This document shows, one piece after another, positions 20,496 through 40,830 of a stretch of 64,000 nt of DNA. The position numbers and the translations under genes were made by a program. Position 1 is the stretch's first letter, and each line of letters begins with the position of its first letter. This DNA comes from Polytrichum commune (lineage: Eukaryota; Streptophyta; Polytrichopsida; Polytrichales; Polytrichaceae), in the NCBI GenBank assembly GCA_950295325.1, contig OX485806.1, positions 45,131,169 through 45,195,168 of the forward strand, read 5' to 3'. The notes beneath the pieces are model-generated. The model saw only the letters and a program-made list of their open reading frames with translations, searched no databases and had not been told where the DNA came from.

Positions 20496-20499
20496 ATAA

Positions 20500-22480
20500 G
20501 TAAATGATAAAAACCAATGTTGATCCCAAGAAAAAATAAATGAAAAAGTTTTTTTGAGATTGGTATAATTGAAGAATGAGTTAATCAAAATACAAAGGGC
20601 GACCAACTTGCTTCGTTTTTATTTCATCACTTTTGTCTTTGTCTTATGTGTGAGTCAACTCTAGAGCTTGGACTCCAACAATTATTGTTTGTGGTCGAAG
20701 AGATTATCTTGAGCTGAATATATATATGAGGACATAATTTAGACTCATACCCAATATGAATGTAGAGACACACGCACACAATGGGAGAGGAGAGAGACAT
20801 GTTTGTTGGCCTAGGATGGGAGAAGGAGATTAGAAGTATAGGAGATCCCCATGTTCCCTTTAATTCATCGCCGGAACATGACATAGATGTTGCAAATCGA
20901 TATAGAGATATACACACGTACTTAATTACCTCCTCTTCCCATTGAACTCAGCACTGAGGCACCTTCGGTATTCATGCCACGCCATAATTTTACTTACAAG
21001 CATTAAAAAATGCCTTTCTCCCGCGTGAAATATATTCACACCTTCACTAGTTGAGTTCCAAACACACCACCCTATCAACACATTCCCACAAGTTCTTTCC
21101 CAACATAATACAACACAATGCTAACTCCTACGCTACACCTAAGCTGGCCTCCTTAATTAATTATCCAATGCTCTAGCATGTTAAGTGGATGCCTAAACCC
21201 AAACTCCCAGAACCTCAACTGCCGCCCTTCAATCCTGGTCTTCCGACCAGCAACTCCAGTACTCTGCCTAGGTACAGAGTAGTGTTGATCTGCATCAATT
21301 GCACTCACCCTCGAAGAGGCCCAGTTCACCTAGGGCGCCCACCAAATGCAGACAGCAGCTTTGCTGGGAAAATGCCTCTCTACCTCCCCGAATCCTCTTG
21401 GTAGCTCCAAGCCCAGCTCCTTGTTGTCTTCCCCTCGCCTCGAACGGCTTCACCTCTGCCTCAGTATACACCCAAGGGATAAACTCCCGTCCCCTGTTGC
21501 TGCATTCTCAGAAGAGCCCAGGCATGCTTCAACTCACTGCGGCGAAATGCCCAGAGGTGAATTGCTCCTCCGAATTAACCACCTTTTCAGAGGGAGAGCC
21601 TTGCGCAGATGCACTGGACCAGGGCGATCTCCCTCCCAAAATTCATTTATTTAGCTCTCAACACCTTCACAACTGCGTGGGATTAATGCCATGATTGTTA
21701 CCTTAAGCAGCTGGAATTCAACATGAATAAATGTCGATCTGGCCCTCCTCCATTTCTTCGACACACAAGTCTTAATTTCTCCGCCCAGCTTGGCCACTGG
21801 AGGAAAGAGCCTCCCGACAGAGCTGCAACCGCAATACCTCACAGCGATTCCTGACCCTCCGTTGGCCTTTGCAGACCTTTCCCTCACAAGCAACCAGCTC
21901 CTTGTCGCCACTTTGATTGCAGCGATTCCGCCACTTAATCTGGCAGGGTTTTCACCCTCTGTGTAGCAGGCCACCGTCCAAACACCTTAGATCGAGATTG
22001 GCACTTCCGAATTCAGGAGTTGGAGATTGTAATTCGCACCTGCCCAGTCTACGACAAACACAACTAGCGCCTTGCTGGCCTCGTATGGTGAATGCTAAAA
22101 CCCGAATCAAAAATCTAGCAGGGGCTCTGCCCCACTGTCGCCGCTCCTTGTTTTTGGTGTTCGGTGAAGCGAGAGAAAATGAGAGAGGAGGCCCCTGGAC
22201 TTGCCGGACCTCTTTCCTGGGCACCCCAAAAATCTAGATGCCTCGTCCCTTCAAAACAAGACCCCCTTCCTTAAACAGGCAGACCTCGAATCCAAACCAA
22301 CAATATTTTTTAAGCCCGACACCCATAATCCTAACCTAAATCCCTTGACTTTAAGCGTCACATAAAATCTAATTGACTAATTACTTGTTGTTGGCCTTCT
22401 CCCTTACATTTCACACAGTCTCACATAAAACTTAAATCCCCTTAACTTTTAGAACTCTAGAACTCTCTAGATTCTATCTA
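20500..22480. other. No gene recognised; C-rich stretch
   Basis: 20.5-21.0 kb is AT-rich and featureless. 21.2-22.25 kb is C-rich with several overlapping open frames in all phases, none resembling a known protein. A block near 22155 (GTGTTCGGTGAAGCGAGAGA) resembles GTGTTCGGCGAGGTCAGAGA at 62157, hinting that both belong to one old repeat. Confidence 0.35.
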
Positions 22481-22509
22481 ATTCAATCAAAACACTATTG
22501 CACCCGTTA

Positions 22510-23270
22510 AAATGTTATAAACGTTAAATTGAAATGTGGGCACCATATTGGGCTCACATAACTGGCGACATCAGGGGATGGATCCAAAATCTCTTTCTGC
22601 AAGAAAATTGTCGCTTGCAGATCCCCGCCAGGTTGCATGCGCTTAACCAAGTCGACCCCACTACCAGGGCTAACCTCCGACATCTTGAAAACAAAAACTT
22701 TGTCCGTCTCGTCACCCTGGCCTGGGAATTGATTATGCTGGACATAGGCCCAAGTGTTGACACCTCTAAGCTTGGCGATGCCATCCATAACTCCCAACCT
22801 ACGTAAGTATTTGAAGGGTGTAATCTTGTTTCGGAGGTGGGGGGAATTCAACTCCTTGCACCGATCAAAAATGGGCTAAGTTCTTCCAACGAAAGAAGTT
22901 GATGAGGGTCACTATCATTACGAAGGAGGAACTCACCCACAAGATTTTTGCTGGCTTCAAGAACAATTTTGGTATGAGTGGATTGGGGCGTTCTCTTGAC
23001 GTGCTCCTCGATGAAGACGTCGATGCGCTTGCGGCTATCTCTCCAGTTGCCAACCTTGACGGGGTGCCGATGGTAGCCCAGATGAATACATGCACGCTGA
23101 GTGGTGTCACTGCCGCGGACGTAGAAGATTTTGGCGTGGCATAGAGCAATGCAACTGGGAGGCTCCTTACAGATCCTACACACTAGGGTGGAGAAGGTAG
23201 GCACGGGACCACCAATGGGAAAGGACTCTTTGGTGAATCCATCAAATTCAGTATCATTGACTCAGGAGGT
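22510..23270 (-). pseudogene. Zinc-cluster transposase-like protein relic
   Basis: The minus strand reads FDGFTKESFPIGGPVPTFS, VCRICKEPPSCIALCHAKI and FYVRGSDTTQRACIHLGYHRHPVKVG. WRDSRKRIDVFIEEHVKRTP and HTKIVLEASKNLVGEFLL follow. After one frameshift near 22850 come CKELNSPHLRNKITPFKYLRR, LGVMDGIAKLRG, NTWAYVQHNQFPGQGDETDK, VFVFKMSEV and DLVKRMQPGGDLQ. The spacing CxxxxC then HxxHRH suggests a WRKY/GCM1-type zinc cluster, as in MULE/FAR1 and related transposases. The second half resembles a conserved protein that I remember only as uncharacterised in seed-free plants and algae. I infer the N-terminal part of a transposase or its host derivative; the catalytic domain is not present. It abuts the palindrome array. 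Confidence 0.5.
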
Positions 23271-23437
23271 ACAATGAAAACGTTGGAGGTAGTCGCAATG
23301 ACGATTATGGCACTCGAGGTGGCCAACTCAGGTGGATGAACAAAAAGCAAAGGCTAAGTCATTGCTAATGTTGGTGGTTTGGATTTTGGTCCAGACATGG
23401 CTGTCGTAGCGTTTGTCCATGCCGTCCATTGACCCGA

Positions 23438-24740
23438 TTCCGAGAGGGTGGTGGAGGGGTAGGATTTTGCTGTGGGACCTAGTTTTGAATGGGCATAACT
23501 TCCTCAATACTTTCGTGAATGTTGCAAGTGAGTAGTCCATTGACATCTACAAGAAATGTAGATGAAGATGGAGTGGTCGTTTGTTAGAATCAAAGATTGT
23601 ATGAGGAAGTTATGATGGTCTGAAGTTTGTACGGGCTTCTAGGCCTACCGGCTAAGGGAAAATGTATACTTGGCCCCAACTCTTGGTAGGGACCCTCTCG
23701 GTTCCGAGAGGGTGGTGGAGGGGTAGGATCCCCACATCAAATTTTGCTTTGCGACCTAGGTTTGATGTATGTGTGATGTTTTTGTATGTGTAGATGATAT
23801 GTCACATAGACACCCTCTCGGAACCGAGAGGGTGGTGGAGGTGTAGGATCCCCACATCACATTTTGCTTTGGGACCTAGGTTTGATGTATGCGTGAGATT
23901 TTTGTTTGGGTATATGATATAGGAGAGTATATGTTTGTGTATATGATATGTCACATAGACACCCTCTCGGAACCGAGAGGGTGGTGGAGGGGTAGTATCC
24001 CCACATCAAATTTTGCTGTGGGACCTAGTTTTGAATGGGCATAACTTGCTCAATACTTTCGTGAATGTTGCAAGTGAGTAGTCCATTGACATCTACAAGA
24101 AATGTAGATGAAGATGGAGTGGCCGTTTGTTAGAATCAAAGATTGTATGAGGAAGTTATGATGGTCTGAAGTTTGTACGGGCTTCTAGGCCTACCGGCTA
24201 AGGGAAAATGTATACTTGGCCCCAACTCTTGGTAGGGACCCTTGTTAGGGTTCCGAGAGGGTGGTGGAGGGGTAGGATCCCCACACTTGATTTTGATCAT
24301 TTGAGCTAGGTTGCTTGTATGTGTTGAATGATTATTGGTGCAGATAATATGTGCAAGTTAAGGAGTCTGGTAGTATAAGGAGGCCAAATCTTGATTAGTT
24401 AGGTTAGGTTGAAAATAATTTCAAGTTAAGAGGTTGGGACATATAGAGACATATATAGGATCTTCACACCTGATTTTGATTGTTGAGGCCGAGAAGCTAT
24501 TATGTAGAAAATGTTTGTAATCCTTGATTTAGTTACAAGGTAGGGGATTGGGTGCGCCTTAGACCCTCTCGGTTCCGAGAGGGTGGTAGGGATAGTATAT
24601 GTGAACCTGATTTTAGAATGTTAAGGCCGAGATGCAGGTATGTGTTCCATGTTTGAAACTCGTTCAACTAGTTAAGAGGTAGGGGGTTGGGTGCAACTAA
24701 GACCCTCTTGGATCCGAGAGGGTGGTAGGATAGTATATGT
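23438..24740. repeat. Start of palindrome array 1, GGTGGTGG-type units
   Basis: Palindromes (ACCCTCTCGG, TT or AA, inverted half) recur at 23697, 23815, 23960 and 24561. Degenerate ones occur at 23445, 24247 and 24703; the last has a GGATCC centre. Most are followed by GGTGGTGGAGGGGTAGGATCC. A 240-bp segment with CATCTACAAGAAATGTAGATG and CCCCAACTCTTGGTAGGGAC occurs twice, at 23466-23700 and 24013-24243, nearly identical, which indicates a recent 547-bp tandem duplication. A third, diverged copy lies inverted at 41265-41480. Confidence 0.85.
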
Positions 24741-24839
24741 GGGTTATATTTCTGATTGTTAAGGCCGAGATGTTGGTATGTATTCCATGTTTGAAACTCG
24801 TTCAACTAGTTAAGAGGTGGGGGTTGGGTGCAACTTAGA

Positions 24840-25745
24840 CCCTCTCGGTTCCGGGACAACACTCCTATGTGAGCGGTGAGCGGAGATTTAAAGAGCGGAG
24901 AGGGTCTAAGTGGCGGTTGTTTGGACCAAATTTTGACTTGAATGGGTTGTAATATAGATGTGTATATATCTGGAATAGATAAATTCATATGTTGAAATCC
25001 TTTTGAGTTGCACTAGGATCCGACCCTCTCGGAACCGAGAGGGTCTAGGTGGCGGTTAATTGGACCAGATTTTGACAAGAATGAGTTGTAATATGGATGT
25101 GTATGTATGTGGACTACATAGACTCATATGTTGAAATTCTTTTGGAATGCACTAGGATTCGACCCTCTCGGAACCGAGAGGGTCTAGGTGGCGGTCGATT
25201 GGACCAGATTTTGACAAGAATGAGTTGTAATATGGATGTGTATGTATGTGGACTACATAGACTCATATGTTGAAATTCTTTTGGAATGCATTAGGATTCG
25301 ACCCTCTCGGAACCGAGAGGGTCTAGGTGGCGGTCGATTGGACCAGATTTTGACAAGAATGAGTTGTAATATGGATGTGTATGTATGTGGACTACATAGA
25401 CTCATATGTTGAAATTCTTTTGGAATGCACTAGGATCCGACCCTCTCGGAACCGAGAGGGTCTAGGTGGACCAACTTTTGACAAGATTGAGGTGCCTTGT
25501 GTATGTGTATGTATGTGGACTAGGTAGGTTCCTTTGTAGAAATTGTTTGAGTATGCCCTAGAGTTCGACCCTCTCGGAACCGAGAGGGCGTAGGTGGTGG
25601 TTGTTTGGACCAGATTTTGACTTGAATGGGTTGTAATATGGATGTAAATGTTTGTGGACTAGCTAGGTCCATATGTTGAAATTCTTTGGGAATGCACTAG
25701 GATCCAACCCTCTCGGAACCGACAGGGTCTAGCTGACGGTTGTTT
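24840..25745 (+). repeat. Palindrome array 1, forward block with GGCGGTTG units
   Basis: Units of about 130-140 bp each carry one CCCTCTCGG palindrome, then TCTAGGTGGCGGT, GGACCAGATTTTGACAAGAA and GTATGTATGTGGACTA. Next come CATATGTTGAAATTCTTTTG and a closing GCACTAGGATCCGA. Cores lie near 25021, 25162, 25300, 25440, 25567 and 25706, all with an AA centre. Adjacent units between 25.0 and 25.4 kb are almost identical, so amplification was recent. Confidence 0.9.
24854..24898 (+). repeat. 45-bp fragment of the dispersed 270-bp repeat inside a palindrome core
   Basis: The palindrome starting at 24838 reads normally to CCG at 24853 and resumes with AGAGGGTC at 24899. Between them lies GACAACACTCCTATGTGAGC plus GGTGAGCGGAG, matching the outer end of the repeat at 45622 on the minus strand. 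Only the terminal part is present. Confidence 0.6.
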
Positions 25746-27500
25746 AAACCTAATTGTGCAAAATCTGGTGCTTCATTACTACACCAAAACCCTCTCGGTT
25801 CCGAGAGGGTGAAATTCTAGCCCCAAAACAAACCAGTTGAACCTAAGAACAAACTAGTTGGAACTATCCACACATACAAGCTAACAACCTTATTGTGCAA
25901 AATCTGGTGCTTCATTACTACACCAAGACCCTCTCGGTTCCGAGAGGGTGAAAATCTACACCACAAACAAACTAGTTGAACCTAACGACCAACTAGTCGA
26001 ACCTATCCACACATACAAGGTAACAACCTTAATGTGCAAAATCTAGTCCTATATTACTACACGGAGACCCTCTCGGTTCCGGGAGGGTGAAATTCTAGAC
26101 CACAAACAAACTACTTGAACCTAACGACCAACTAGTTGAACCTATCCACACATACAAGCTAACAACCTTATTGTGCAAAATATGGTGCTTCATTACTACA
26201 CCAAGACCCTCTCGGTTCCGAGAGGGTGAAAATCTAGACCACAAACAAACTACTTAAACCTAACGACCAACTAGTTGAACCCATCCACACATACAAGCTT
26301 TCAACCTTAATGAGCAAAATATGGTGCTTCATTACTACACAAAGACCCTCTCGGAATCGAGAGGGTGAAATTATAGCCCCAAAACAAACCAGTTGCACCT
26401 AACGACCAACTACTTGAACCTATCCACACATACAAGCTAACAACCTTAATGTGCAAAATCTGGTCCAATATTACTACACAATGACCCGAGAGGGTAAAAT
26501 TCTAGACCAAAAACAAACCAGTTGAACATAAGAACAGACTAGTTGGACCTATCCACACATACAAGCAAACAACCTTATTGTGCAATACCTGGTCCTATAT
26601 TTCTATCCTAAGACCCTCTCGGTTCCGAGAAGGTGGAATTCCAACACACATACAAGCTTTCAACCTAAATATGCAAATTTTGGTCCTATATTACTCCTTG
26701 AAGAACCTCACGGTACCGACAGGTTGAAAATCCAGCCCAAAAACAACCCCGTTGAACATATGAACCACCAAGTTCAACCTATGTCCACAAACAACCTTTC
26801 AACCTTAATGTTCAAAATCTCTTGCTTCATTACTACACAAAGACCCTCTCGGTTCCGAGAGGGTGAAATTCTGGAACACAAACAACTAGTTGGACCTAAC
26901 GACGAACTAGTGCACCTCTCCACACAAACAAGCTAACAACCTTTATGTGCAGAATCTGGTCCCATATTTCTATCCTAAGACCCTCTCGGTTCCGAGAGGG
27001 TGAAATTCTAGCCCACAAACAAACTAGTTGAACCTAACGACCAACTACTTCAACGTAACCAAACAATGAAGCTATGAACCTTCAAAAATAAAATCTAATC
27101 CTTGACACCTATACTAAGACCCTCTCGGAACCGAGAGGGTCTAATTCCAGCCACCAAGCACACTAGTTGAGCCTAACAACCAACTTGTTGAACCTATCCA
27201 CACATACAATCTAACAACCTTAATGTGCAAAATTTGGTGCTTCATTACTACACGAACACCCTCTCGGTTCCGAGAGGGTGAAATTCCAGCCGTAGAACAA
27301 ACCAGTTCAACCTAACAACTAACACCCTTAGTGTGCAGAATGTAGACCTTTACTTCTATCCAAAGACCCTCTCGGTTCCGAGAGGGTGAAATCCTTGCCC
27401 ACAACAAACTAGTTGAACCTATGAACCACCTAGTTGAATCTATCCAAACATACAAGCATTCAAACTTAATGTGCAAAATCAATTCTTATATTTCTATCCT
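25745..27500 (-). repeat. Palindrome array 1, inverted block
   Basis: Here the cores mostly have a TT centre and are followed by GTGAAATTCTAG, ACAAACTAGTTGAACCTA, ATCCACACATACAAGC, AACAACCTTA and TGTGCAAAATCTGGT, i.e. the reverse-complement arrangement of the forward units (GGACCAGATTTTG). Cores lie near 25788, 25926, 26066, 26204, 26343 (TC variant), 26612, 26842, 26979, 27118 (AA, flipped), 27256 and 27365. Two are badly eroded (26484 and 26703). The block is more diverged than the forward blocks. Confidence 0.85.
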
Positions 27501-27689
27501 TAGACCCTCTAGGAACCGAGAGGGTGTAGGTGGCGGTTGTTTGGACCAGATTGTGGGAATTATGTATGTGGACTAGGTAGGTACTTAGGTTGAAATTTTT
27601 TTGTGTGTGCATTAGAGGGAGACCCTCTCGGAACCGAGAGGGTCAAGGTGGTGATAGTATGGACCAAATTTTGCCAAGTGTAGGGCGGC
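27500..27689 (+). repeat. Palindrome array 1, forward units left of the TIR element
   Basis: Cores near 27504 (AGGAACC variant) and 27621 are followed by forward-type unit sequence: GGCGGTTGTTTGGACCAGAT and GGTGATAGTATGGACCAAAT. The second unit is broken at AGGGCGGC by the inserted element and resumes at 28333. Confidence 0.85.
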
Positions 27690-28332
27690 CTCATGGAGTG
27701 CACTATTCATTAAAACCAAGTATCACGTGCGTGCATGCCCCTTATTAAAATACCCCTGTATACATTTTATTTTTGCTAAAATCAAGCAATATACTTACAA
27801 ATCTCATTGCTTCAAAATACATTTCCATACGTACACAAGGGTCCAAAACCAAATACAGAAATTGTATATAACATGTGTACAAATGTTTGGAAATGCAAAA
27901 ATATGGCCCTATTATATGTATACTATCAAATCATGGATTTTTAGTTATAAAGTCGTTAAAGACTTTTTCATCACTTGGATGAAGTTCGTACGTGTCTGTT
28001 TCAACATCATACGTCAAATTGGCCAAAGCAATAACCGTATCCAATTCTACCATAATATGATCTGTGAGATCATAACTCCAAATAAGGTTGTTACTTAGTG
28101 GATGAAAAAACGCATGATTCTTGGTCTAGGTCTAACTTGAACACGTAAACGCATAAACCCGTACTTTACATATATTTTTCTATAGCCTTATCTCCAGCCT
28201 CATGTACATCTACTTCCTGCTTAATAGCAATATGTCTCTTGTACGTACATTTTGTACATGCTTGTTCTAAATAATACCCCATTTGTGCACGCACGTGTAT
28301 ATTTACAGTACTTGAACAGTGCACTCCCTGGA
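27690..28332. mobile_element. 643-bp TIR element with 8-bp target duplication
   Basis: The element is bounded by AGGGCGGC on both sides (27682-27689 and 28333-28340), the sequence expected once in an intact array unit. Its ends are inverted repeats: CTCATGGAGTGCACT at the left and the reverse complement of TCCAGGGAGTGCACT at the right, extending to ATCACGTGCGTG / ACACGTGCGTG over about 40 bp. It is a sibling of the 708-bp element at 55684. An 8-bp duplication fits hAT-like or P/Novosib-like elements; the superfamily is not settled. Confidence 0.85.
27940..28100 (-). CDS. Conserved ORF fragment within the TIR element
   Basis: The minus strand reads LSNNLIWSYDLTDHIMVELD, then TVIALANLTYDVETD and TYELHPSDEKVFNDFI. 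The sibling element at 55926-56225 encodes WTYDLTDHLMIDLETIIALA, then TMTYIGES and YELHPGDDKNFNDFV. The frame is kept between copies although the DNA has diverged, with many changes at third codon positions. I do not recognise the domain. It may be the C-terminus of the parental transposase or a small protein of the element. Confidence 0.45.
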
Positions 28333-30690
28333 AGGGCGGCTTGTGTATGTGAATGTATGTGGACTAGGTAGCTACTTAGGTTGAAATTTTTTGTGTCTGC
28401 ACTAGAGTGAGACCCTCTCGGAACCGAGAGGGTCTAGGTGGTGATAGTATGGACCAGATTTTGGGAATTATGAATGTGGACTAGGTAGGTACTTAGGTTG
28501 ATATTTTCTTGTGTGTGCACTAGAGTGAGACCCTCTCGGAACCGAGAGGGTCTAGGTGGTGATAGTATTGACCAGATTTTGACAAGTTTAGGGCAGCTTG
28601 TGTATGTGAATGTATGTGGACTAGGTAGCTACTTAGGTTGAAATTTTTTGTGTCTGCACTAGAGTGAGACCCTCTCGGAACCGAGAGGGTCTAGGTGGTG
28701 AAAGTATGGACCAGATTTTGGGAATTATGAATGTGCACTAGGTAGATACTTAGGTTGATATTTTCTTGTGTGTGCACTAGAGTGAGACCCTCTCGGAACC
28801 GAGAGGGTCTAGGTGGTGAAAGTATGGACCAGATTTTGGGAATTATGAATGTGCACTAGGTAGATACTTAGGTTGATATTTTCTTGTGTGTGCACTAGAG
28901 TGAGACCCTCTCGGAACCGAGAGGGTCTAGGTGGTGATAGTGTTGAACAGATTTTGGGAATTATGTATGTGGACTAGGTAGGCACTTAGGTGGAAATTTT
29001 TTGTGTGTGCACTAGAATGAGACCCTCTCGGAACCGAGAGGGTCTAGGTGGTGATAGTATGGACAAGATTTTGGGAATTATGAATGTGGACTAGGTAGGT
29101 ACTTATGGTGAAATTTTTTGGTGTGTGCACTAGAGTGAGACCCTCTCGGAATCGAGAGGGTCTAGGTGGTGATAGTATTGACCAGATTTTGACAAGTTTA
29201 GGGCGGCTTGTGTATGTGAATGTATGTGGACTAGGTAGGTACTTAGGTTGAATTTTTTTTTGTGTGCACTAGAGTGAGACCCTCTCGGAACCGAGAGGGT
29301 CTAGGTGGTGATAGTATTGGCCAGATTTTGACAAGTTCAGGGTGGCTTGTGTATGTGAATGTATGTGGACTCCCAAGGGACTTCGGTTGAAATTGTTTGG
29401 GTGTGCACTAGAGTGAGACCCTCTCGGAACCAAGAGGGTCTAGGTGGTGATAGTATGGACTAGATTTTGACAAGTTTAGGGTGGCTTGTGTATGTGAATG
29501 TATGTGGACTAGGTATGTTCTTAGGTTGAAAATGTTTGTTTGTGCACTAGAGTGAGACCCTCTTGGAACCGAGAGGGTCTTAGTGGCGAATGTATGGACC
29601 AGATTTTGACAATTGTGAGGTTCCGTGTGTACGTGTATGTATGTGGATTAGCTAGGTTCATATCTTGAAATTCTTTTGGAATGCACTAGGATCCGACCCT
29701 CTCGGTTCCGAGAGGGTCTAGGTGGCGGTTGTTTGGACCAGATTTTGACTAGAATTGGGTGCCTTGTCTATGTGTATGCATGTGGACTAGATAGAACCAT
29801 ATGTTGAAATTCTTTGGAAATGCACTAGGATCCGAGCCTCTCGGTTCCGAGAGGGTCTAGGTGGCGGTTGTTTGGACCAGATTTTGACAATAATAGGTTG
29901 TAATACGGATGTGTATGTATGTGGACTGGGTAAGTTCATATGTTGAAATTCTTCTGGAATGCACTAGTGTCCGACCCTCTCGGTTCCGAGAGGGTCTATG
30001 TGGCGGTTGTTTGGACCAGATTTTGACAATAATGGGTTGTAATATGGATGTGTATGTATGTGGACTAGGTAAGTTCATACGTTGAAATTCTTCTGGAATG
30101 CACTAGTGGCCGACCCTCTCGGAACCGAGAGGGTCTAGGGTGCAATTGTTTGGACCAGATTTTGACTAGAATTGGGTGCCTTGTCTATGTGTATGCATGT
30201 GGACTAGATAGAATCATATGTTGAAATTCTTTGGAAATGCACTAGAATCCGACCCTCTCGGCACCGAGAGGGTCTAGTGTGCGGTAGTTTGGACAAGATT
30301 TTGACTTAAATGAGGTTCCTTGTGTATGCGTATGTATGTGGTCTAGCTATATTCATATGTTGAAATTCTTTGTGTATGCACTAGAATCCGACCCTCTCGG
30401 GACCGAGAGGGTGTTGCTTGCAGTATTTTGGACCAGATTTTGACTAGAATGAGGTGCCTTTTCAATGTGTATGTATGTGCACTAGTTAGGTTCATATGTT
30501 GAAATTTTATTGGAATGCACTAGAGTCCGACCCTCTTGGAACCGAGAGGGTCTTCCTTGCGGTATTTTTGACTAGATTTTGACTAGAATGAGGTTCCTTT
30601 TGTATGTGTATGTGTGTGGACTAGCTAGATTCATATGTTGAAATTCTTTGTGTATGCACTAGAATCCAACCTTTTCGGACTACGTTTATG
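28333..30690 (+). repeat. Palindrome array 1, main forward block
   Basis: Eighteen or so units of two lengths (about 118 and 139 bp) share a core, TCTAGGTGGTGATAGTATGG, ACCAGATTTTG, GTGGACTAGGTAG, CTTAGGTTGAAATTTT and GTGCACTAGAGTGAGA. The longer type adds ACAAGTTTAGGGCGGCTTG. Cores lie near 28411, 28530, 28671, 28789, 28907, 29023, 29141, 29280, 29419, 29558, 29696, 29833, 29972, 30113, 30251, 30389 and 30529, with a last ruined one at 30668. Most have an AA centre; those at 29696, 29833 and 29972 have TT despite forward flanks. Confidence 0.9.
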
Positions 30691-30699
30691 TTTGTGTTA

Positions 30700-33110
30700 T
30701 CTTAGTTTGAGAAAGGGGTTGAGGGTGAGATCGCCTCATTTGAAAATGAATGCTTCATCGACATTGACTGGGTTTCTATGGAAGATCTTTTCCAACCTGT
30801 TTATTTTGTCGAGCATTGAAGGCTCATTTTGTGAAACAAGGCTTGTAGAGTATATTTTGATGACAAGGGTGTCTTAAAGTTCACCAAAGGGCTCGATCTC
30901 ATGGAGTTCGAGGAAGGCCCCTTAGCTATCAAGCGTGTTGCTTACCGGTAATCATTTTTTCTTTTTCTTTTGTCCTTCATATCTTCGTTTCTTTTCACTC
31001 CATTTCTTTGTTCTAATTTTCTTCACTTTGTAGGTACATTCACCATGAGCTTGTCGTAAAGAATGCTCTTCCTTCTTCGTCCTTGACGTCTTTCCTTGAC
31101 GAGTGGATCGATGACAACTCAAATCTTAGTGTATACACGCCCATGCAACTTGAAAAATTTCCACGCGTGCATTTAGTCGCTGGTGGTTGGTGCTTGGATT
31201 GTTCTCGTGGATTTGTTCATGACGTAGAAGAACCCCTCTACAATAGCCTCACTTCCTCTGTCCTGAGGTAATTGAATTGGAGGAAGAGCCGGAAAAAGAT
31301 GAGAATCCGGCTCCTCCCACCAATGACAAAGAGGTTGCACCGGTGAAGGCCAAGGCCAAGGCCAAGGCCAAGGCCAAGGGTAAGAGGGTGGCATCTAGTT
31401 AAGTGTCCACTCGTTCAACGCATTCCAACTACGACAGTTGTCGGAAGTCCAATGGCAACTCCTTCTGCCCCTTCTCGGGACCATGTTCCAGCTCTTTCCC
31501 ATAGCGGTGTCACCATTTCCTCCGTGCCATGCAAGAGGAAGGCCGTCGCTCCAGATACCTCCGCAACTTCTCTCTCTTTGATTAAAAATGTCCACATGGG
31601 GAGCTCATAGAGGATCTCATGCGGTCCAAGGTTCCCCCTCCGGCTTACCGCCGTATCCAAGAATTCCTTACTAAGGTTTGTGGGACATTCTATTGTTTTC
31701 TCGTTCATTCATTCTAATTCAACAATTATTTTCTTATATTTTCCTTTGGATTTTGGATTTGCAAATTGGAGCGGGTCGTACTCGTCCTAATAGCAAGCCT
31801 AAGGTGCATACAGGGCTTGATCTACTCCTCGCAGATATGCCGGAGAACCTTTGTGTGTCTGGCATCTTGTCATCATCGTCCGATGTTCCTATATGGAACA
31901 AGCGTTCTTCGACTTATTTTGAGGTTCTCTTTACCTTTGCTAACGCCAACCTTCATGACGACGACATTCTTGTCTTTGCACATGCCGCTGATCCTGACGT
32001 GTCTAGATCCATACATAACTGGGCACATACAGAGGACTTCTACGTTGCCGAAGACTGGTTTGGCATGAATGACCTCGATCTCCAATCGCATACTAATCCA
32101 CCCGAGTTGGTAATTTCTTTCTTGCCTCATCATTTTGTATTATTATCTTCTTTTCCTTGCATTTTTGTATTCCTAATTCTACCCTTCTCATTTCTTGCAG
32201 ACTCGCAAGTTCTTCATCAAGGTGCTCGTGCGTAATGATTCTGTTTTGAATGTCCGGACCTCGACCTTCAAAGACATGGGTTACAATCTCAAGAGAGATG
32301 GTTGGCTCAATAGCTTCCCCGATTCGAAGAACTAGTCGGTGAGGGAAGACGGAGTGCCTTGGAGAGGTGCTCGTCAAAAGCGCCCTAAGTTATTTTCCAT
32401 CATTTTCTCCGCCCTCACTGACAATGACGACATTATCATGGATTGGCAATGTGGCCTTAGATTGTTTTTCTTTTTCTTGTTTCTCATGACTTTGTTCTTT
32501 GTTGTTTTTTTTTACTTGTTTCATTTCCCATTAATTCCCTTATGCTCACCTTCTCGTATTTCGTTCTTCTAGGAGGTTCCGTCATTGCATGTTGATCCAT
32601 TCAACGCCATATTATGGCGCTTGAGTCGGATATCGATATCTTCAAGTCCATCATCTTCCCTATGCGTGAGACTGAGCAAGAACACACTTATCAGCATGCT
32701 GCCCCACAACGAGGATTGGTTTTTGCTCCTCCTCCCCGGAAGATGGTGAAGCGCAATTTTAATTTGTTATGTGCGTAAGTTTGTTCTTGGCTTCTTACTT
32801 GCTTGCTTGCATTTCTATCTTCTCGATTCCAGATTTTTGGCATGTGTTAATTTTTTTTGTTTTCTCGTTCTATATTTTCAAAGTTCATATTGAGAGCCCG
32901 ATTGGTGTTCTTAATGCGGACATGTTTGCAACCCCTTCGACGACGTTTGAGCTCCCTTCGTATGCTGCTGACCTTCCCCATCTTTTGGCGGAAGCGTCGT
33001 CCCCACCTCCTAGTCACACCCGCCCTTTCAACAAACTAGTTTTGGATTTCCTAGACATAGAGGCCGAGCAGGGCGAGGATAGTGATAGACATGGTAGTCC
33101 AAGTTTTTGA
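30700..33110 (+). pseudogene. Decayed multi-exon gene with a methyltransferase-like motif
   Basis: Exon A (to 30947) reads EGEIASFENECFIDIDWVSM and GLDLMEFEEGPLAIKRVAYR. A clean intron GTAATC...TTTGTAG (30948-31033) keeps the frame into YIHHELVVKNALPSSS, DEWIDDN and YTPMQLEKFPRVHLVAGGW. A low-complexity KAKAKAKAK stretch follows (31345-31380), then LMRSKVPPPAYRRIQEFLTK. The next exon (to 32109) has GLDLLLADMPENLCVSGILS, IWNKRSSTYFEVLFTFANAN and FYVAEDWFGM. Intron 32110-32200 leads to TRKFFIKVLVRND and MGYNLKRDGW, then DDIIMDWQCG. After an intron come GGSVIAC, RHIMALESDIDIF and LPHLLAEASS before TAG/TGA. DWQCG-x-GGS followed by a strand ending in ALESD resembles motif I plus the next acidic strand of N4/N6 amino-methyltransferases. 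Stops and frameshifts (near 30818, 31262, 32334 and 32607) show decay. The function is inference. Confidence 0.45.
31343..31380 (+). repeat. Hexanucleotide minisatellite inside the coding relic
   Basis: AAGGCC is repeated about six times (AAGGCCAAGGCCAAGGCC and onward), coding for alternating Lys-Ala. It lies between the VHLVAGGW exon and the serine-rich part of the relic and would form a charged linker. Confidence 0.8.
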
Positions 33111-33314
33111 CTACGCCTCGTGCGTTTATGTTTGAGTTTTTTTATAAGTTCATTTGTGGAATTTTCATGTGCCTTTTGCAAACCACATTCAACTCCTTCT
33201 TCATCTTATGTTGTCGTTTGTTTTCAATTGCTCTTGAAGGTTGAAGGCTTGTATTAATTTTGTACATATGTTCAACTACTTGGTTGATAGATTCAACTAC
33301 TTTGTTGTTTGGCT

Positions 33315-33725
33315 GAAATTTGACCCTCTCGGAACCGAGTGGGTCTTAGTGTAGGAATCAAGGACGAGATTTAAGATAGGTTCGGGTGGATGGGGTTGTA
33401 TCTTTTTTGGTTAGGTTGATATTTCTCAAGTTAAGGTGTTGGGCAATGTAGGGACCCTGTTGGTTCCGAGAGACTATATGTGTGAACCGCATTCTCAACT
33501 TTGATTCATATGATGAATCTTTTTGTTTTTTGGATGCTCTCACTTCGGAAGTGAGACTAGATGCGTAGGCCAGATTCTCAACTTTGATTCATATTAAGAA
33601 TGTTTCTGTTTTTTTGGATGCTCTCACTTCCGAGAGCCTAGATGGATAGGCCACATTCTCAACTTTGATTCATATGTTGAATATTTGTGTTTTTTGGAGG
33701 GCTCTCACTTCGGAAGTGAGACTAG
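33315..33725. repeat. Residual CCCTCTCGG palindromes and a CTCACTTC palindrome array
   Basis: Single degenerate CCCTCTCGG-type cores occur at 33321 and 33452. Three units of about 80 bp then carry CTCACTTCGGAAGTGAG (33539-33555 and 33704-33720) or the variant CTCTCACTTCCGAGAG (33621). Each is followed by AGATG, GTAGGCCAGATTCTCAACTT and TGATTCATAT. The palindrome sequence differs but the layout (one palindrome per unit) repeats that of array 1. Confidence 0.7.
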
Positions 33726-33729
33726 ATGG

Positions 33730-34440
33730 GCAGGCCAGATTCTCATTTAGGCCACATTTATTTGGATTCTCATTTTTTAACTGGATACACATTTTTGTAA
33801 CTCTTGAGTTTGACACCTAACTTCACCTACATTTTCTCGGCCAATCAAATATTTTGTAAAACATTCCGCTCCTTCATCAGAAGGTCTAAGAATACTTGGA
33901 AAGAATACCCTAGCTACTTGGGGCAATGTATCACTTTGGACAAAATCATTTAAGAACACTTAAGTACATTTAAGGGCTACTTCACACACGAGCCAAGAGC
34001 TGTGACCATGAATTGTGAGAGCCCACGAGAAGGTGTCCAAAGGCCGTCCCAAGACACCTCCAAAATTATGTAGTGTGGTCACGGATTTTCAAGTCTAGTA
34101 TGAAGCCATATGTGACCAGGCCCTCATTCAAATGCTATTTCAATGGATTTCTATTCATGTGAGTCTTCACACATGATAAAAACAAAATAAATCAACGGTT
34201 GTGAATATTCAAAATGATAGGGTCTTTTGATTTTGTGTTAGGCCTACCTCCCAAAGGTGGATTCTTATGTTGTTGTTCGATTTCAATTGATGACATCAGC
34301 CCTAATTTAATATGAAACCATTTGAAACCTAGACTATAAGATCTTTGATAACAAATACATTCTTCCACGCCTTTAGGTTCTACTTGTTTCTCGAACCAAG
34401 ATGCGTTATAATCTCCACGGGAATGGGGTGCCTTTCCAAC
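33730..34440. other. No gene recognised
   Basis: AT-rich DNA between the minor palindrome array and the partial dispersed repeat. Short open frames here show no family features. Confidence 0.5.
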
Positions 34441-34459
34441 AAATTGAATTCACTCTATC

Positions 34460-34570
34460 TATAAATTCCACGGAAATAGGCACCGCTTGTCCTAAAATTA
34501 TCCAACAAAGTCAAAATTTTCTGCTCTCCAATCTCCGCTCTCCGCTCTCTGCTCTACGCTCACACTACTA
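34460..34570 (-). repeat. Dispersed 270-bp repeat, partial copy
   Basis: TTCCACGGAAATAGG, then CTGCTCTCCAATCTCCGCTC and TCCGCTCTCTGCTCTACGCT, then CACACTACT match the outer half of the copies at 45350-45622 (same orientation) and 20229-20495 (opposite). It lies upstream of the leader of gag copy B. Confidence 0.5.
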
Positions 34571-35039
34571 AGTTTCGCATTCGAAGGAGGGAGCAGCTTA
34601 GAAGAAGCACCGCTCTTCTTAGCTTAGGACGGTAGTTAGATTAGTTAGGCAGAATAGAGATAGGAAGATAGGACTTAGGAGTTTTGGGAAGTTGAGGAAT
34701 AAAATTCTCCCTTGGATTTTGTCAGCGGAAAATCGGGATCTTGATCCGGGAAATCCGGGAGGATGGAACCAGTTAGGGTTTTTTTAGGGGCCGCCGCCTT
34801 CAGATAAGGGATTTTGGGCCTCTACTTAAGGCTGAATAAGGAGCTGGATAGGGGTTCCTTCTCCATTGTTGTACTTTGATTGCTCCAACTCTAATATACT
34901 CCTTGATTTCTCACTCCTTGACTTTCCTTGATTGATTTTGTGTACGAATGATTCGGAGATCGTTAGCGGAGGAGAGAGAGCATGAGGGGATAGGAGTTCC
35001 GGATAGGACATGGGAGAAGAGACCCGGATCAGATCTAGT

Positions 35040-35535
35040 GCCTTGCGAATCCTCTCTGTGGGTAGTGGGAGGGAGACCTCACTATTCCGGATGGTTGACT
35101 AACGTCTAGGTGGGATAGCCGCTGGGAGGATAAGGTGAGATCCGGAAGGGATCCGGACTTGCGCCGTCCGAGCTTCTAAAGAGGTCCCACCGCCCTTAGA
35201 CGGACCAATCATGAAAGTGGTACGGATCGCCCAGTTAGCTCAGATTTAGTAGAGCCCAAGGTAGTGGTAGCCGGATCAATCTGTTAGGAGGAGGAGGGAA
35301 GTACAGGAACAGTTAGAATTCCGGGTCGGAGGCCATCTCCGGAGTGTAGTGGGAAGGGGACCTCATTGTTCCGAATGTCTGGGTAACGTCTAGGTGAGAT
35401 AGCCGTGGGGAGGACTGGGTAAAGATCCGGAAGGGATCCGGTCTTGCGCCAATTTGATCTTCTGAAGAGGTCTCACTGCTTTTGGACGGGACAATCCGGA
35501 AAGTGGTACAGATCACCCACTTATCCCCTCGAGTC
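35040..35535 (+). repeat. Two diverged direct repeats of about 190 bp
   Basis: Copies at 35048-35240 and 35345-35535 share TAACGTCTAGGTGnGATAGCC, GATCCGGAAGGGATCCGG, CTTGCGCC, CTTCTnAAGAGGTC and GTGGTACnGATC. They are part of the leader of the gag copy B element, which is dense in TCCGGA. Leader repeats of this type are common in plant LTR elements. Confidence 0.6.
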
Positions 35536-36129
35536 AAATCTCCGGGTGGAATCCGGAATACTCCAGTCGTTGTAGTCCTAAGATATAATCCGGATTTCCC
35601 TGTGTGACCTACCAAGACGGATTTGGCCAATCCGGATTGGTTGAAAGGGAATATCCAAATCCCAATCTTATAAGGGACGTCTTCACCGGAAGAAACCAAC
35701 TATTCTAGAGGGTAGAACGTAAAGGGGTAAATCTGGACCATAGGGGTGAGTAAGTATTATAATTAGGACCTAAAGATACAATCCGGAAAGGCAAACTCCG
35801 GAAGAGGAAGAGTTTCCAAAAGACCGGAAAGCCGGAAACCGGGGTTTCCGGAAATTCGGCTAAGGAGTGGAAGATAAGTGGGTACGGGGAGTTCTCGACC
35901 TCCTACACTTCACAAAATCCCTGGACAATACTAGGGTCATCCGGACAAAACCGGATTAGGCACTTAAAAACGCCAATCCGGATATTTTGGTGTTCGTGTG
36001 TTCCCACAAATCACATACGTGAGCAATAGCGCAAAGCAAGTAGGCTTAGTGATTCATTGATGTGGGAGCCGGTAAATGCCCGGAAGTCCGGATTAACAGC
36101 CAAACCGGTCTTTAGAATAGGAATAGGTA

Positions 36130-36528
36130 GTCTATTTTGGTTAGGTTAAGGGAATTTAGGATAGCTTAGCCGTTTTAGGAAATCACTTTTTGCACGTCCG
36201 TCCAATCGCAATAATATGGTTAAAACGGCCCTCTTAGCCTAGCCGGAACCGTACCGAAAATACCGTTAAATAACTGCTTGCTCCGAAGCAACCGGAATGA
36301 TGGCAGTTGTACGGGAATAGGGCGGTTACCGTAAACGGTTACCCTAGGCGGTTACGGGCCGAACTCGAGGAGGACGGGCCCACTTAAAGGAAATCAGCCC
36401 TCCCCTTGAGTCATTTGCGTAGTGCAACTGTGCCGAGAGAAAGAATGGTGAAGTGTTTTCTTTTTGTCGAATCATCAGCAATTGGATTGCTGAGATTATG
36501 CTTTAGGACGGATAGGAATTAATGCACA
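36130..36528 (+). promoter_or_regulatory. Promoter and leader of gag element copy B
   Basis: MYB-core motifs are packed as GGCGGTTACCGTAAACGGTT and ACCCTAGGCGGTTACGG (36323-36357). They are followed by a purine-rich leader and AGCAATTGGATTGCTGAGA just before the gag ATG at 36529. The order parallels 17.8-18.2 kb. Confidence 0.4.
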
Positions 36529-38395
36529 ATGCCGGAAGTGCGGGAGGATGAGGATCTTGTTCCGATTCCTCTTAAAAATGTAGCGCCTGCCATTCCGACT
36601 CGGGAATCAGAGCTGAATGAGCTGATAAAGGACCTCACCTGGATGGATGCGAGGGCCTTCTGGCGAAGCCCTGGAATTTGCGGAGCGAGGCCACATTGAG
36701 GGAATTTTTGTCGGAGAGAGGGAATCAGTGGGAGAGGACAATGCGGCTGGTTCCGAAACAGTGGACTGCAGAAGCTTGGGTTGATGTCTATGGGTTCGCA
36801 CCGAGGAGGGGCGAAGGGTGGGCAAACCGGAAGGATACCTATTTTGTACGGAAATTCAGAACGGAGCATGATCCGAAGGATGGGTTCCATCCGGGAGATT
36901 GTCGAAAGCCTAGGGAGCGTAGGGTAATAGAATTTCTCCTCCCTATTCTCTACCCGGAGAAGCCCAAGAGATTGAGCATCACCATGGCCAATACCATCTT
37001 CGGAACACGGCCGGTCAAGTGGGGGCGACTCATCTAGGAATTGGGGGAGAAGTCGATCCTCCACATCAGAAAGAAACCCTCTCCCCTCTCCTGTACATTC
37101 TGCATCTCTATCAGCAGAATGGGTGCGTTAAGGAAGAAGAGGAGGATGCCTTAACAATTGCAGAGGACGAGGTCGTCTATAAACTTGGGCTGGAGGTTGA
37201 GTTGACAGAAGCCGGAACAGAAGAGTCATTGAGCAACCATGTCGTCCCTGAGCCGCCTCCTGTCGCACCCACCCCCGAAGCAAGAAGAGCGGCCACTCCT
37301 CAGCCCCGAACCGAAGTTGGCCCAAGCAGGGAGCCGCACTGGAGGGACATTGACCTGTCCTCCTTCGAATATCCGGAGACCCCCTTCAAGCGAGTCCGGG
37401 AGGAGCTGACCCACCTCCAGAATCATTATTTCTGGCTAGAGCATATTACCTTGGGCGTAAGCAGGGCATTGGATAACTGCGGAACCGGAAATATCCTTCG
37501 GGAACTGGCTAAGAAGACGGACACGTCAAAAGTGGACACACTGGAGACTGAGAAGGCACAATTGGCCGCGCAGATGGCACCATTGACTCTGGAGCTTGCG
37601 CACAAGAGCGAGGAAGTCCGCCGCTACTAGGTGGAGTAGAAACTGGTACTGGACCGGGTCCGGGAGCTGGTCGGATATCCGGGAGAGACCGTCAACAAAA
37701 CCCACCTATACGACAAACTCGTGGAAACGGCGAATCCCTCCTCAGCCCGGCACACCTTGCAGATTTTGGTTAAGTACTCCCACGGGTAGGTCACTTAGTG
37801 CATTTTAAAAACGACGTGCGGCATAATATAGAGAGGATTAAAATCATTTGAAATTAAAATTATAAAGGAATTCCAAATAATGAAGGGGCCATTAAATGTA
37901 GACAATCCCATTATAAGTAAGTTAGATGGACATAAAATGTGGGCCATTATTTTTTTGTAAAATTAATATAGGGGCTGAAGATAAGGATCCTAGAAGGTAT
38001 GTTTAGTATGTTTTCTATGGTCTCCTATGTGTTTTCTTCATAACTTTGTTTGCAATGATATTATTGTTTGCACCCTTCTTTGTTTCCATGGTTTCCCTTA
38101 ACACTTGTCAATGCGTTAGGAAGTAGATTAGCTTTTATTACTTAAAAAGAATATAGAGTACAAAAAATTGGAGTGACTTGGACAATATAAGTAATGGAAG
38201 GGTGCAAACAAATGGGCCATTTTTGAAATTTAAGTAATTATAGGGAGGCTTTAATTCAACCCTTGAAGGTAAATAGCCCCAAAACAAAAAAAACCCCTAG
38301 CCGCACGTGGTGCACAAAAATGCCTTAGAGTGACCTACCCGTGAGTACTCCAGGTCAATGATAGACTTGTTGAAGGAAATTTAGAAGCTCCTGCC
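36529..38395 (+). pseudogene. Gag-like protein copy B, interrupted by a TIR element
   Basis: The gene starts MPEVREDEDLVPIPLKNVAP and shifts frame near 36655 to LAKPWNLRSEATLREFLSER. It continues KQWTAEAWVDVYGFAPRRGE, DPKDGFHPGDC, RERRVIEFLLPILYPEKPKR, MANTIFGTRPVKWGRLI and TAG at 37035. A -1 shift leads to the frame from 37019: YILHLYQ, EDALTIAEDEVVYKL, DIDLSSFEYPETPFKRVREE, LDNCGTGNILRELAKK and SEEVRRY, then stops. Residues like VRELVGYPGETVNKTHLYDK and ARHTLQILVKYS follow to 37780. The 563-bp insertion intervenes, and SMIDLLKEI resumes at 38352 and fades near 38395. The same order in copy A, including the coiled-coil part, proves they are paralogues. The C-terminal basic tail of copy A is absent. 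No pol genes are present. Confidence 0.65.
37781..38343. mobile_element. 563-bp hAT-like MITE inserted in gag copy B
   Basis: The ends are perfect 15-bp inverted repeats, CACGGGTAGGTCACT and AGTGACCTACCCGTG. They extend imperfectly through TGCATTTTT to GTGCGGC/GCCGCAC over about 45 bp. The 8-bp direct repeat AGTACTCC flanks it exactly (37773-37780 and 38344-38351). Removing the insert and one AGTACTCC restores the gag reading order (KYS followed by RSMIDLLKEI, as in copy A KYSRTMKDLLAEI). The 8-bp duplication and CA...TG ends fit the hAT superfamily. No transposase frame is visible inside. Confidence 0.9.
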
Positions 38396-38406
38396 CTTGC
38401 GCTGTT

Positions 38407-38501
38407 GCAACCCTTGCTAGTCTCCTTAGCAATTTTGCCAATTTTCCTTTCTAGCAAAGGTTACGAGCGCAAATCCTTCGCATTCCACCATACTAATGGT
38501 T
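38407..38501 (+). repeat. 95-bp direct repeat, left of array 2
   Basis: GCAACCCTTGCTAG, TTGCCAATTTTCCTTTCTAG, CAAAGGTTACGAGCGC and CTAATGGTT recur at 40853-40946 with few changes. The two copies frame the second palindrome array. Confidence 0.85.
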
Positions 38502-38509
38502 CATACTAT

Positions 38510-40830
38510 CACCACCTAGACCCTCTTGGTTCCGAGAGGGTTTCACTCTAGTGCACACCCAAACAATTTCAACCGAAGTCCCTTGGGAGTCCACATACAT
38601 TCACATACACAAGCCACCCTGAATTTGTCAAAATCTGGCCAATACTATCACCACCTACACCCTCTCGGTTCCGAGAGGGTTTCACTCTAGTGCACACACA
38701 AAAAATTTCAACCTAAGTACCTACCTAGTCCACATACATTCACATACACAAGCCGCCCTAAACTTGTCAAAATCTGGTCAATACTATCACCACCTAGACC
38801 CTCTCGATTCCGAGAGGGTCTCACTCTAGTGCACACACCAAAAACTTCCACCATAAGTACCTACCTAGTCCACATTCATAATTCCCAAAATCTCGTCCAT
38901 ACTATCACCACCTAGACCCTCTCGGTTCTGAGAGGGTCTCACTCTAGTGCACACACAAAAAATTTCCACCTAAGTGCCTAGCTACCTAGTCCACATACAT
39001 AATTCCCAAAATCTGTTCAATACTATCACCACCTAGACCCTATCGGTTCCGAGAGGGTCTCACTCTAGTGCACACACATAAAATTTCAACCTAAGTACCT
39101 ACCTAGTCCACATACATTCACATACACAAGCCGCCCTAAACTTGGCAAAATTTGGTCCATACTATCACCACCTTGACCCTCTCCATTCCGAGATGGTCTC
39201 CCTCTAATGCACACAAAAAAAAATTCAACCTAAGTACCTACATAGTCCACATACATTCACATACACAAACCGCCTTAACCTTGTCAAAATTTGGTCAATA
39301 CGATCACCACCTAGACCCTCTCAGTTCCGAGAGGGTCTCATTCTAGTGCACACACAAAAAATTTCAACCTGAGTACCTACCTAGTCCACATACATAATTC
39401 CCAAAATCTAGTCAATACTATCACCACCTAGACCCTCTCGGTTCCGAGAGGGTCTCACTCTAGTGCACACACATAAAATTTCAACCTAAGTACCTATCTA
39501 GTCCACATACATTCACATACACAAGCCGCCCTAAACTTGGCAAAATTTGGTCCATACTATCACCACCTTGACCCTCTCCGTTCCGAGAGGGTCTCCCTCT
39601 ATTGCACACACAAAAAATTTCAACCTAAGTACCTACCTAGTCCACATACATTCACATATAGAAGCCGCCCTAAACTTGGCAAAATTTTGTCCATACTATC
39701 ATCACCTTGACCCTCTCCATTCAGAGATGGTCTCACTCTAATGCACACACATAAGATTTCAACCTAACAACCTACCTAGTCCACATTCATAATTCTCAAA
39801 ATTTGTTCAATACTATCACCACCTAGACCCTCTCGGTTCCGAGAGGATGTCACTCTAGTGCACACACAAAAATTTCAACCTAGGTACCTACCTAGTCCAC
39901 ATACATTCACATACACAAGCCGCCCTAAACTTGTCGAAATCTGGTCAATACTATCACCACCTAGACCCTCTCGGTTCCGAGAGGGTCTCACTATAGTGCA
40001 CACACATAAGATTTCAACCTAAGTGCCTACCTAGTCCACATACATAATTCTAAAAATCTCTTCAATACTATCACCACCTAGACCCTCTCGGTTCCGAGAG
40101 GGTCTCACTCTAGTGCACACACAAAAAATTTCAACCTAAGTACCTACCTAGTCCACATACATTCACATACACAAGCCGCCCTAAACTTGGCAAAATTTTG
40201 TCCATACTATCATCACCTTGACCCTCTCAGTTCCGAGAGGGTCTCACTCTAGTGCACACACAAAAAATTTCAACCTGAGTACCTACCTAGTCCACATACA
40301 TAATTCCCAAAATCTGTTCAATACTATCACCACCTAGACCCTCTCGGTTCCGAGAGGGTCTCACTCTAGTGCACACACATAGAATTTCAACCTAAGTACC
40401 TGCCTAGTCCCCATACATTCACATACACAGTCCGCCCTAAACTTGGCAAAATTTTGTCCATACTTTCACCACCTTGACCCTCTCGGTTCCGAGAGGGTCT
40501 CCCTCTAATGCACACACAAAAAATTCAACCTAAGTACCTACCTAGTCTACATACATAATTCCCAAAATCTGTTCAATACTATCACCACCTAGAGCCTCTC
40601 GGAACCGAGAGGGTCTCACTCTAGTGCACACACATAAAATTTCAACCTAAGTACCTACCTAGTCCACATACATTCACATACACATGCCGCCCTAAACTTG
40701 GCAAAATTTGGACCATACTATCACCACCTAGACCCTTTCGATTCCGATAAGGTCTCATTCTAGTGCACACCAAAAAATTTCGTCATAAGTACCTACCTAG
40801 TCCACATTCATAATTCAAAATTTGGTTTCT
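38510..40830 (-). repeat. Palindrome array 2, inverted relative to the main block of array 1
   Basis: Eighteen cores (near 38519, 38659, 38800, 38918, 39039, 39177, 39314, 39431, 39571, 39710, 39827, 39965, 40081, 40219, 40337, 40475, 40592 and 40731) alternate with unit bodies. The bodies read TCACTCTAGTGCACACACA, AAATTTCAACCTAAGTACCT, ACCTAGTCCACATACATTCA, AAGCCGCCCTAAACTTG and ATACTATCACCACCTAGA, the reverse complement of units at 28.3-29.5 kb. Centres are TT except at 40592 (AA). Unit lengths fall into two classes, about 117 and 138 bp, often alternating. Confidence 0.9.

Follow-up and report, generated by a model that had tools for sequence, protein, structure and literature searches.

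Why should a short palindrome be retained, unit after unit, in tandem repeats whose intervening DNA drifts? The question is raised by a stretch of 64,000 nucleotides from Polytrichum commune (assembly GCA_950295325.1, contig OX485806.1, positions 45,131,169 to 45,195,168 of the forward strand), hereafter the window, in which a 22-bp palindrome recurs in two satellite-like arrays. The arrays belong to a family of large DNA transposons that have defined ends, encode two divergently oriented genes (A and B) and carry exact copies of the palindrome between the two genes as well as in introns of gene B. The palindrome persists through the turnover of its spacers, and one branch of the family has a different palindrome with the same inner core. 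The reading that we favour, and regard as rather likely, is that the palindromes constitute arrays of putative binding sites inside a large Mutator-like transposon.

Conservation of the palindrome within and between arrays

Palindrome 1, ACCCTCTCGG-NN-CCGAGAGGGT, spans 22 bp and is built from the half-site ACCCTCTCGG. The window contains 121 matches to the half-site with at most one mismatch, versus 2.3 expected from shuffles, and 65 sites matching the palindrome with at most six mismatches, the arms being perfect in 35 of them and carrying one mismatch in 22. Five Markov-shuffled windows yielded 0-1 such sites each. The sites extend from 23428 to 40753 and are distributed over array 1 (44), array 2 (18) and the region between the arrays (3), which bears out both the span and the figure of about 65 palindromes in two arrays given by a sequence-only reading of this DNA. 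Array 2 is inverted with respect to array 1, and the likeness between them reaches 97% over 486 nt.

Mean pairwise divergence within the five unit groups amounts to 2.5-10.6% in the arms and 11-23% in the spacers, so that the divergence of the arms is 1.8- to 7.6-fold below the mean of the spacer. The palindrome had been described as the best conserved part of every unit, and this holds for four of the five groups, in which the divergence of the arms lies below that of every 20-column spacer window. It fails for the GGTGATAG group, where the best spacer window is 3.4% divergent versus 6.5% for the arms, an observation that counts against the reading of the palindromes as binding sites. Core and flank do not diverge equally, the difference being less clear in this one group of the five. 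CpG effects act against the conservation of the arms: mutations are roughly twice as frequent at CpG as at other arm positions (8.6% vs 4.5%). The units had also been assigned to three unrelated types. On comparison of single representative units with mononucleotide shuffles, the GGCGGTTG and GGTGATAG types prove to be homologous (z 25); the GGTGGTGG type shows similarity at no better than p 0.02-0.03, and the inverted block of array 1 displays weak similarity to one of the GGCGGTTG/GGTGATAG types (p 0.01).

The conservation is stronger between loci than within unit groups. Two further arrays were read on contig C1 (stretches L007/L008 and L009/L010). Palindrome 1 is identical in these and in the window arrays, where the spacers are almost unrelated: 18 of 20 comparisons between representative spacers do not rise above mononucleotide shuffles at p 0.05, and the remaining two give p 0.015-0.02. 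A search of the genome (408 Mb in 64 contigs, with nearly all listed matches on contigs C1-C7) revealed 1998 exact copies of palindrome 1 and none of a reversed control; the core is thus also present outside this satellite. These between-locus comparisons agree with the earlier proposal that the retention of the palindrome across different flanks points to selection over simple satellite drift. Pure drift was discarded as an explanation, with the spacer comparisons, the helical spacing and the placement near gene B counting against it.

The inverted symmetry of the palindrome is perfect, as would be expected if it acted as a folded structure, be it an RNA hairpin, a cruciform or a replication origin. 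The stem of such a hairpin would be only 10 bp long, and a change in one arm seldom has its counterpart in the other. Across 242 sites, of which 18 have 5-7 mismatches and may be spurious, there are 222 single-arm changes versus 17 in both arms, 6 of these preserving pairing; across the 224 sites with at most four mismatches the numbers are 127 and 5, with pairing kept in 1. The mostly uncompensated changes rule against a hairpin or RNA structure, and the suggestion of RNA or cruciform folding is not supported. Nor does anything observed here speak for the cleavage or replication role that had also been suggested, although the analysis included no direct test of either. We consider a folded structure to be extremely improbable as an explanation of the palindrome.

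A large two-gene transposon

The ends of the element were found by comparing both C1 loci, with adjoining stretches joined. The first relative is an element of 25.35 kb (a 200-N assembly gap included) that is flanked by a perfect target duplication of 10-11 bp, and the second is an element of 20.9 kb with a perfect duplication of 10 bp; perfect target duplications are therefore present in both relatives for which both ends were found. The ends have in common an inverted sequence of the TGTGAGCGTAGAGCGGAGAGC type, about 30-55 bp long and rich in GAGCGGAGAGC, which constitutes the terminal inverted repeats. In both relatives the palindrome arrays lie inside the bounded element. A free, ordinary satellite, that is, a tandem array unbounded by a mobile element, was rejected on the grounds that the arrays are internal to bounded DNA transposons of 20-25 kb.

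The window contains a degraded copy, element 1 (Table 1). Its left end falls within 3 bases of the left ends of the two relatives in the alignment, and its terminal region on the gene A side is 78% identical to the relative at C1:24.585 Mb. A target duplication was looked for at this degraded copy and none was found. Array 2, together with the inverted end at 45624, would form part of a second, likewise degraded and inverted, element.

At three loci, gene A adjoins the array and points away from it, and a multi-exon gene B lies on the other side in the opposite direction. The gene A remnant of the window displays 69-79% amino acid identity to gene A of two relatives, and its gene B 36-61% to gene B of the relatives (both by tblastn). 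Between the two C1 elements, gene A is 73% identical over 681 amino acids and gene B is 81-91% identical, depending on the exon. A Pfam search with the two halves of gene A from L008 gave no family at E values up to 1; the matches of gene A from L009 to FERM_M (E 0.028) and UreE_C (0.22) are both below the cut-off and read as unlikely, and one gene A half gave no match when compared by sequence with the PDB. Gene A contains the blocks DGTYQ, ADSAQANW, CFFHW and NLAESVHNKW, and the DGT, (A)DS, CxFHW and NxAESxHxxW elements in them are, judged by eye, what we take to be features of Mutator-like elements (MULEs). The target-site duplications of MULEs measure 8-11 bp. These sequence blocks and the length of the target duplications suggest that the element is Mutator-like.

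An assignment to the CACTA superfamily was also tried and rejected, since the ends read GGAC..., the duplications are of 10-11 bp and not 3 bp, and gene A has no Transposase_21 match. CACTA transposases are abundant in this genome (150 scored of 643 candidates), and ten of their loci, each of 3.6 kb, contain no full palindrome.

The main array is located between genes A and B in all three loci read in detail. Further arrays occupy gene B introns, one at L007 5512-6997 in the 20.9-kb element and one, in a different intron, at L021 3126-4335 in the 25.35-kb element; the intron that bears the array in the former is short in the latter. No palindrome was found in the matched exons of the window, L007, L008, L009 and L021 (L010 being left out of this count). 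The arrays thus occupy noncoding parts of the element and move between them.

The family is large and recent. The gene and palindrome matches considered here are the best-scoring or first ones, and palindromes were read in a minority of the copies. A search with gene A returned 1896 candidates, the best 106 of which were scored and are 79-100% identical; the 29 next-best copies (93-95%) have a median DNA difference of 1.0%, with pairs down to 0, a near-identity that pertains to gene A of one band only. The search with gene B returned 1060 candidates and 152 matches, and the identities of the best 150, which were used, fall in three bands. A listed gene B lies upstream within 45 kb in 82 of the 106 listed gene A copies, 81 times in divergent orientation; the other 24 have no listed gene B upstream, and gene B is on the downstream side in 5. 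Gene A copies of at least 92% identity are paired with gene B of 66-76% in 43 cases and with gene B of at most 59% in 11. Because the identity bands combine in several ways, genes A and B have apparently been reshuffled, and recombination among lineages of the element is suggested.

Second palindrome, site spacing and candidate reader

The repeated word GAGGCCTCGGATCCGAGGCCTC occurs twice in the 1.9 kb upstream of a gene A copy that is 95% identical to the reference. Palindrome 2, GAGGCCTCGG-NN-CCGAGGCCTC, is present in 1917 copies genome-wide, and its reversed control in none. Both palindromes have in common the inner CTCGG-NN-CCGAG and differ in the outer halves of both arms. Clusters of palindrome 2 at 2.25 and 12.94 Mb of C1 lie upstream of listed gene A copies, 1.4-2.5 kb from the matched part, and those at 13.97-13.98 Mb adjoin a gene B of 69% identity, with gene A 18 kb further on; no listed gene is close to a lone site at 13.84 Mb. 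Among the matches listed, all palindrome-2 clusters are on C1 below 14 Mb. The copies of this branch are probably nearly identical and recently mobile, as judged from the one band of gene A.

The spacings of both palindromes favour multiples of 10.55 bp, one helical turn, a preference that is supported and not proven. Palindrome-1 sites are mostly 96, 105-108, 117-118 or 137-139 bp apart. When periods between 5 and 30 bp were scanned over all 215 spacings of up to 450 bp, the best was 10.55 bp (R 0.845), and the same peak was obtained with the 49 spacings distinct per locus (R 0.501). For palindrome 2, the peak is again at 10.55 bp (43 spacings, R 0.863); nine collapsed spacing classes, examined at the preset 10.55, give p 0.00015, and the three basic classes (96, 117 and 127.5) give p 0.00045. 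Taken for both palindromes, eight amplified classes attain a best R of 0.92, which is reached by 0.3% of random sets. In one array (C4:25453767-25457777) the spacings are 125-132 bp and multiples thereof, and some of the longer spacings are sums of shorter ones.

Several results run counter to a helical phasing. The 37 palindrome-1 spacings that are distinct overall have their strongest peak at 5.2 bp, and the 21 distinct ones of up to 160 bp peak at 11.25; with a 179-bp class included beside the three basic ones of palindrome 2, p weakens to 0.0099; units out of phase do occur (82, 91, 113, 120, 121, 131 and 153); and the spacing counts are not independent, because the units within an array are related.

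The arrays clearly expand and homogenise while their spacers turn over, and a palindrome is plausible as a break point. Satellite turnover, with the palindrome as the preferred site of breakage or exchange and kept by the mechanism of amplification, not by function, might accordingly be invoked. Such turnover does not, however, predict helical spacing in two palindrome families, noncoding placement in one transposon family, or a sister-branch palindrome with the same inner core, and we regard it as very unlikely. Under the reading of the palindromes as putative binding sites, expansion of the arrays by unequal exchange would explain the fast turnover of the spacers.

For the association of palindrome 1 with the two genes, the genome was sampled with the rarer-centre pattern, and 100 of its 125 matches group into 32 clusters. 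A listed gene B is found at a distance of at most 15 kb from ten clusters, versus 0.35 expected under uniform placement; the gene B copies near them are 79-92% identical to the reference in six cases and 48-51% in four. The 66-76% band, which includes 61 of the 150 gene B copies, is found at none of the ten (p 0.004). Palindrome 2 has three listed gene B copies next to it, at 69, 70 and 73%. Gene A beside palindrome 2 is 93-95% identical to the palindrome-1 reference, compared with 79-90% beside other palindrome-1 arrays. A short stretch beside a gene A of 90% and a gene B of 86% (L058) has a degenerate site with an intact palindrome-1 half. Among the clusters lacking a listed gene B in their vicinity are two isolated palindrome-1 sites (C1:467242 and C1:9750566), a point that tempers the rejection of an ordinary satellite. 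With the type of palindrome sorting by gene B band better than by gene A, the simplest history starts from an ancient palindrome 1, retained even where gene B copies share only about half of their residues, and includes a single switch on the 66-76% branch.

These features are compatible with a model in which a dimeric protein would bind each palindrome, with one subunit on each half-site, and neighbouring dimers, bound to one side of the double helix, would act cooperatively. Such an arrangement of phased dimers fits the symmetry, the uncompensated arm changes and the spacing. The putative reader is likely an element-encoded protein, given that an entire branch has a palindrome of its own, and gene B is the better candidate, because the palindrome type follows the gene B bands better than it follows gene A identity.

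The case for gene B is weakened by a number of observations. Gene B has no Pfam family over the cut-off, with a weak match to Laminin_I (E 0.22), and its joined exons (357 and 475 amino acids) gave no family at E values up to 10. Palindrome 1 is also found beside gene B copies only 48-51% identical; with these values, and 36-61% for gene B of the window, the palindrome type does not simply track the distance between gene B copies, and a gene B reader requires the switch on one branch. The palindrome-2 side rests on the three gene B copies mentioned above, and 22 of the 32 palindrome-1 clusters are without a listed gene B within 15 kb. At a further locus (L059; C1:65546150-65546549), with a gene A of 93% and a gene B of 51%, the palindrome-1 site is broken, and the repeat units contain half-site-like CTCTCGGA words about 75 bp apart instead of full palindromes.

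Those 22 clusters, which may belong to degraded or unlisted copies or be foreign to the family, would suit a host protein, such as an activator, an insulator or a heterochromatin factor, whose sites the transposon has collected; many plant factors could bind 10-bp half-sites as dimers. A whole branch with a second palindrome would be easier to understand with a reader borne by the element, and we consider a host reader quite unlikely. Alternatively, the palindromes could be TnpA-like sites of the transposition machinery, at which the protein of gene A or B assembles the ends or represses the element. The second motif is linked to the element, and CACTA elements provide a precedent in that, according to the cited passages of PMC2613891, their repeated, partly palindromic motifs vary between subfamilies and a fast-evolving DNA-binding protein of the element is proposed as the reader. 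The main arrays are, however, internal to the element: they lie in introns and in the DNA that separates genes A and B, kilobases away from its ends. The type of palindrome does not follow gene A, as the identities given above indicate. This alternative appears unlikely.

The features of the window are summarized in Table 1. The insert of about 640 bp in array 1, across which the palindrome spacing rises to 790 bp, is bordered by what look like short inverted repeats (GAGTGCACT...AGTGCACTC) and shows, over part of its length, 67% similarity to positions 55688-56072 of the window; it is probably a small non-autonomous transposon. Array 2 is flanked by direct repeats of 100 bp (38402-38501 and 40848-40946) that are 91% alike. 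Region 40883-41820 resembles, at 91%, DNA beyond the limits of the 20.9-kb element on C1, and a 200-bp piece of it recurs, inverted, in array 1 (23492-23692 and 24038-24238). Open frames at 18348-20247, which overlaps element 1 at its left end, at 36621-37627 and at L007 203-1837 encode one protein family, whose two window copies are 58-61% alike over parts. These three frames have no Pfam match over the cut-off and probably represent another mobile element; the Pfam search of the window open reading frames as a whole gave only matches below the cut-off. Finally, region 62590-63511 is a long imperfect palindrome, 922 bp of which align to their own reverse complement at 75%.

Table 1. Transposon and palindrome features of the window (positions in the 64,000-nucleotide stretch)
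Feature	Positions	Strand	Remarks
Element 1, degraded two-gene transposon copy (gene A side left, gene B side right)	20229..34578	+	
Terminal region of element 1, gene A side (GGACAACACAGCTATGTGAGC...)	20229..20483	+	82% to 45369-45624 inverted
Gene A remnant, transposase-like, with Cys/His-rich block; truncated, two frames	22588..23432	-	tblastn
Palindrome array 1, between divergent genes A and B	23428..30680	+	44 sites, 29 with perfect arms
Terminal-sequence remnant within array 1	24854..24886	+	85-94% to element left ends
Inverted block inside array 1	25789-27504		
Foreign insert inside array 1	about 27690-28325		
Gene B exons (approximate, from protein matches)	30704-30823, 31020-31745, 31765-32175, 32141-32359, about 32790-33107	+	
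Two degenerate palindromes 3' of gene B	33323..33475	+	
Terminal motif of element 1, gene B side	about 34518..34578	-	Resembles right ends of both relatives, ...CGCTCACACTACTAAGTTTC
Palindrome array 2, inverted	38520..40753	-	18 sites, 6 with perfect arms
Terminal region, gene A side, of putative second, inverted element	45369..45624	-	

Relation to known systems

VANDAL elements are Mutator-type transposons. In Arabidopsis, as described in the cited passages of PMC5735166 and PMC10398659, the VANDAL protein VANC binds a 9-bp motif in fast-changing tandem repeats located upstream of the transposase gene and in introns, expression of VANC results in the loss of DNA methylation over the VANDAL element, and related families make use of other motifs. 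The domains of VANC are DUF1985 and DUF287 (same passages of PMC5735166). As far as these passages go, the present family is built alike in kind. Both are large DNA transposons with a short motif kept in fast-changing tandem repeats, the motif repeats are positioned upstream of the transposase or transposase-like gene and in introns of the accessory gene, and different motifs are used by related families or branches. The transposase can likewise be more conserved than the accessory gene, as in the palindrome-2 copies (95% vs 70%), a pattern from which the two C1 elements depart (gene A 73%, gene B 81-91%). The motif itself differs, being a 22-bp palindrome here and a 9-bp word in the VANDAL passages; the terms 'palindrom', 'helical' and 'spacing' are absent from the main text of both papers. 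Gene B is not VANC, as it has no match to DUF1985 or DUF287 by Pfam, and anti-silencing is for this reason an analogy. The system is most likely analogous to VANC anti-silencing and not a member of it.

By that analogy, bound arrays might protect the element's promoter region and introns against silencing, or they might regulate transcription. An anti-silencing role is possible but less likely than not, the alternatives being transcriptional control and a role in transposition. It is possible, though doubtful, that the family represents a second, independently evolved system of transposon protection, in which a dimeric gene B reader would coat phased arrays, keep promoter and introns unsilenced, and have co-evolved with its sites through the palindrome switch (ACCCT... 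to GAGGC...) within one genome.

Similarities to CACTA (En/Spm) elements concern the partly inverted sets of repeated motifs, which are subfamily-specific and, in the cited passages of PMC2613891, thought to be read by a fast-evolving protein of the element. Unlike those elements, the present one has neither CACTA ends nor a 3-bp duplication, and its arrays are internal, whereas TnpA-type repeats are subterminal. The CENP-B box of satellites is a short protein-binding box that is kept while the rest of the monomer drifts. The palindrome resembles it in being a short box kept amid drift, and differs in that the repeats belong to a mobile element and carry a complete palindrome.

Literature searches on Mutator-like elements with palindromic tandem repeats, helical phasing in transposons, CACTA palindromes, VANC and satellite palindromes gave no title on such a system among the matches listed, and the listed matches of a full-text search for the half-site 10-mers look like chance, judged by their titles. 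VANDAL elements are a known case of transposons with tandem arrays of a motif. Here, a single genome presents about 3900 exact palindromes of two kinds, at least 81 divergent pairs of genes A and B, and three bands of gene B, a family that allows one to ask which protein reads the motif, how its specificity switches and whether the geometry of the array matters.

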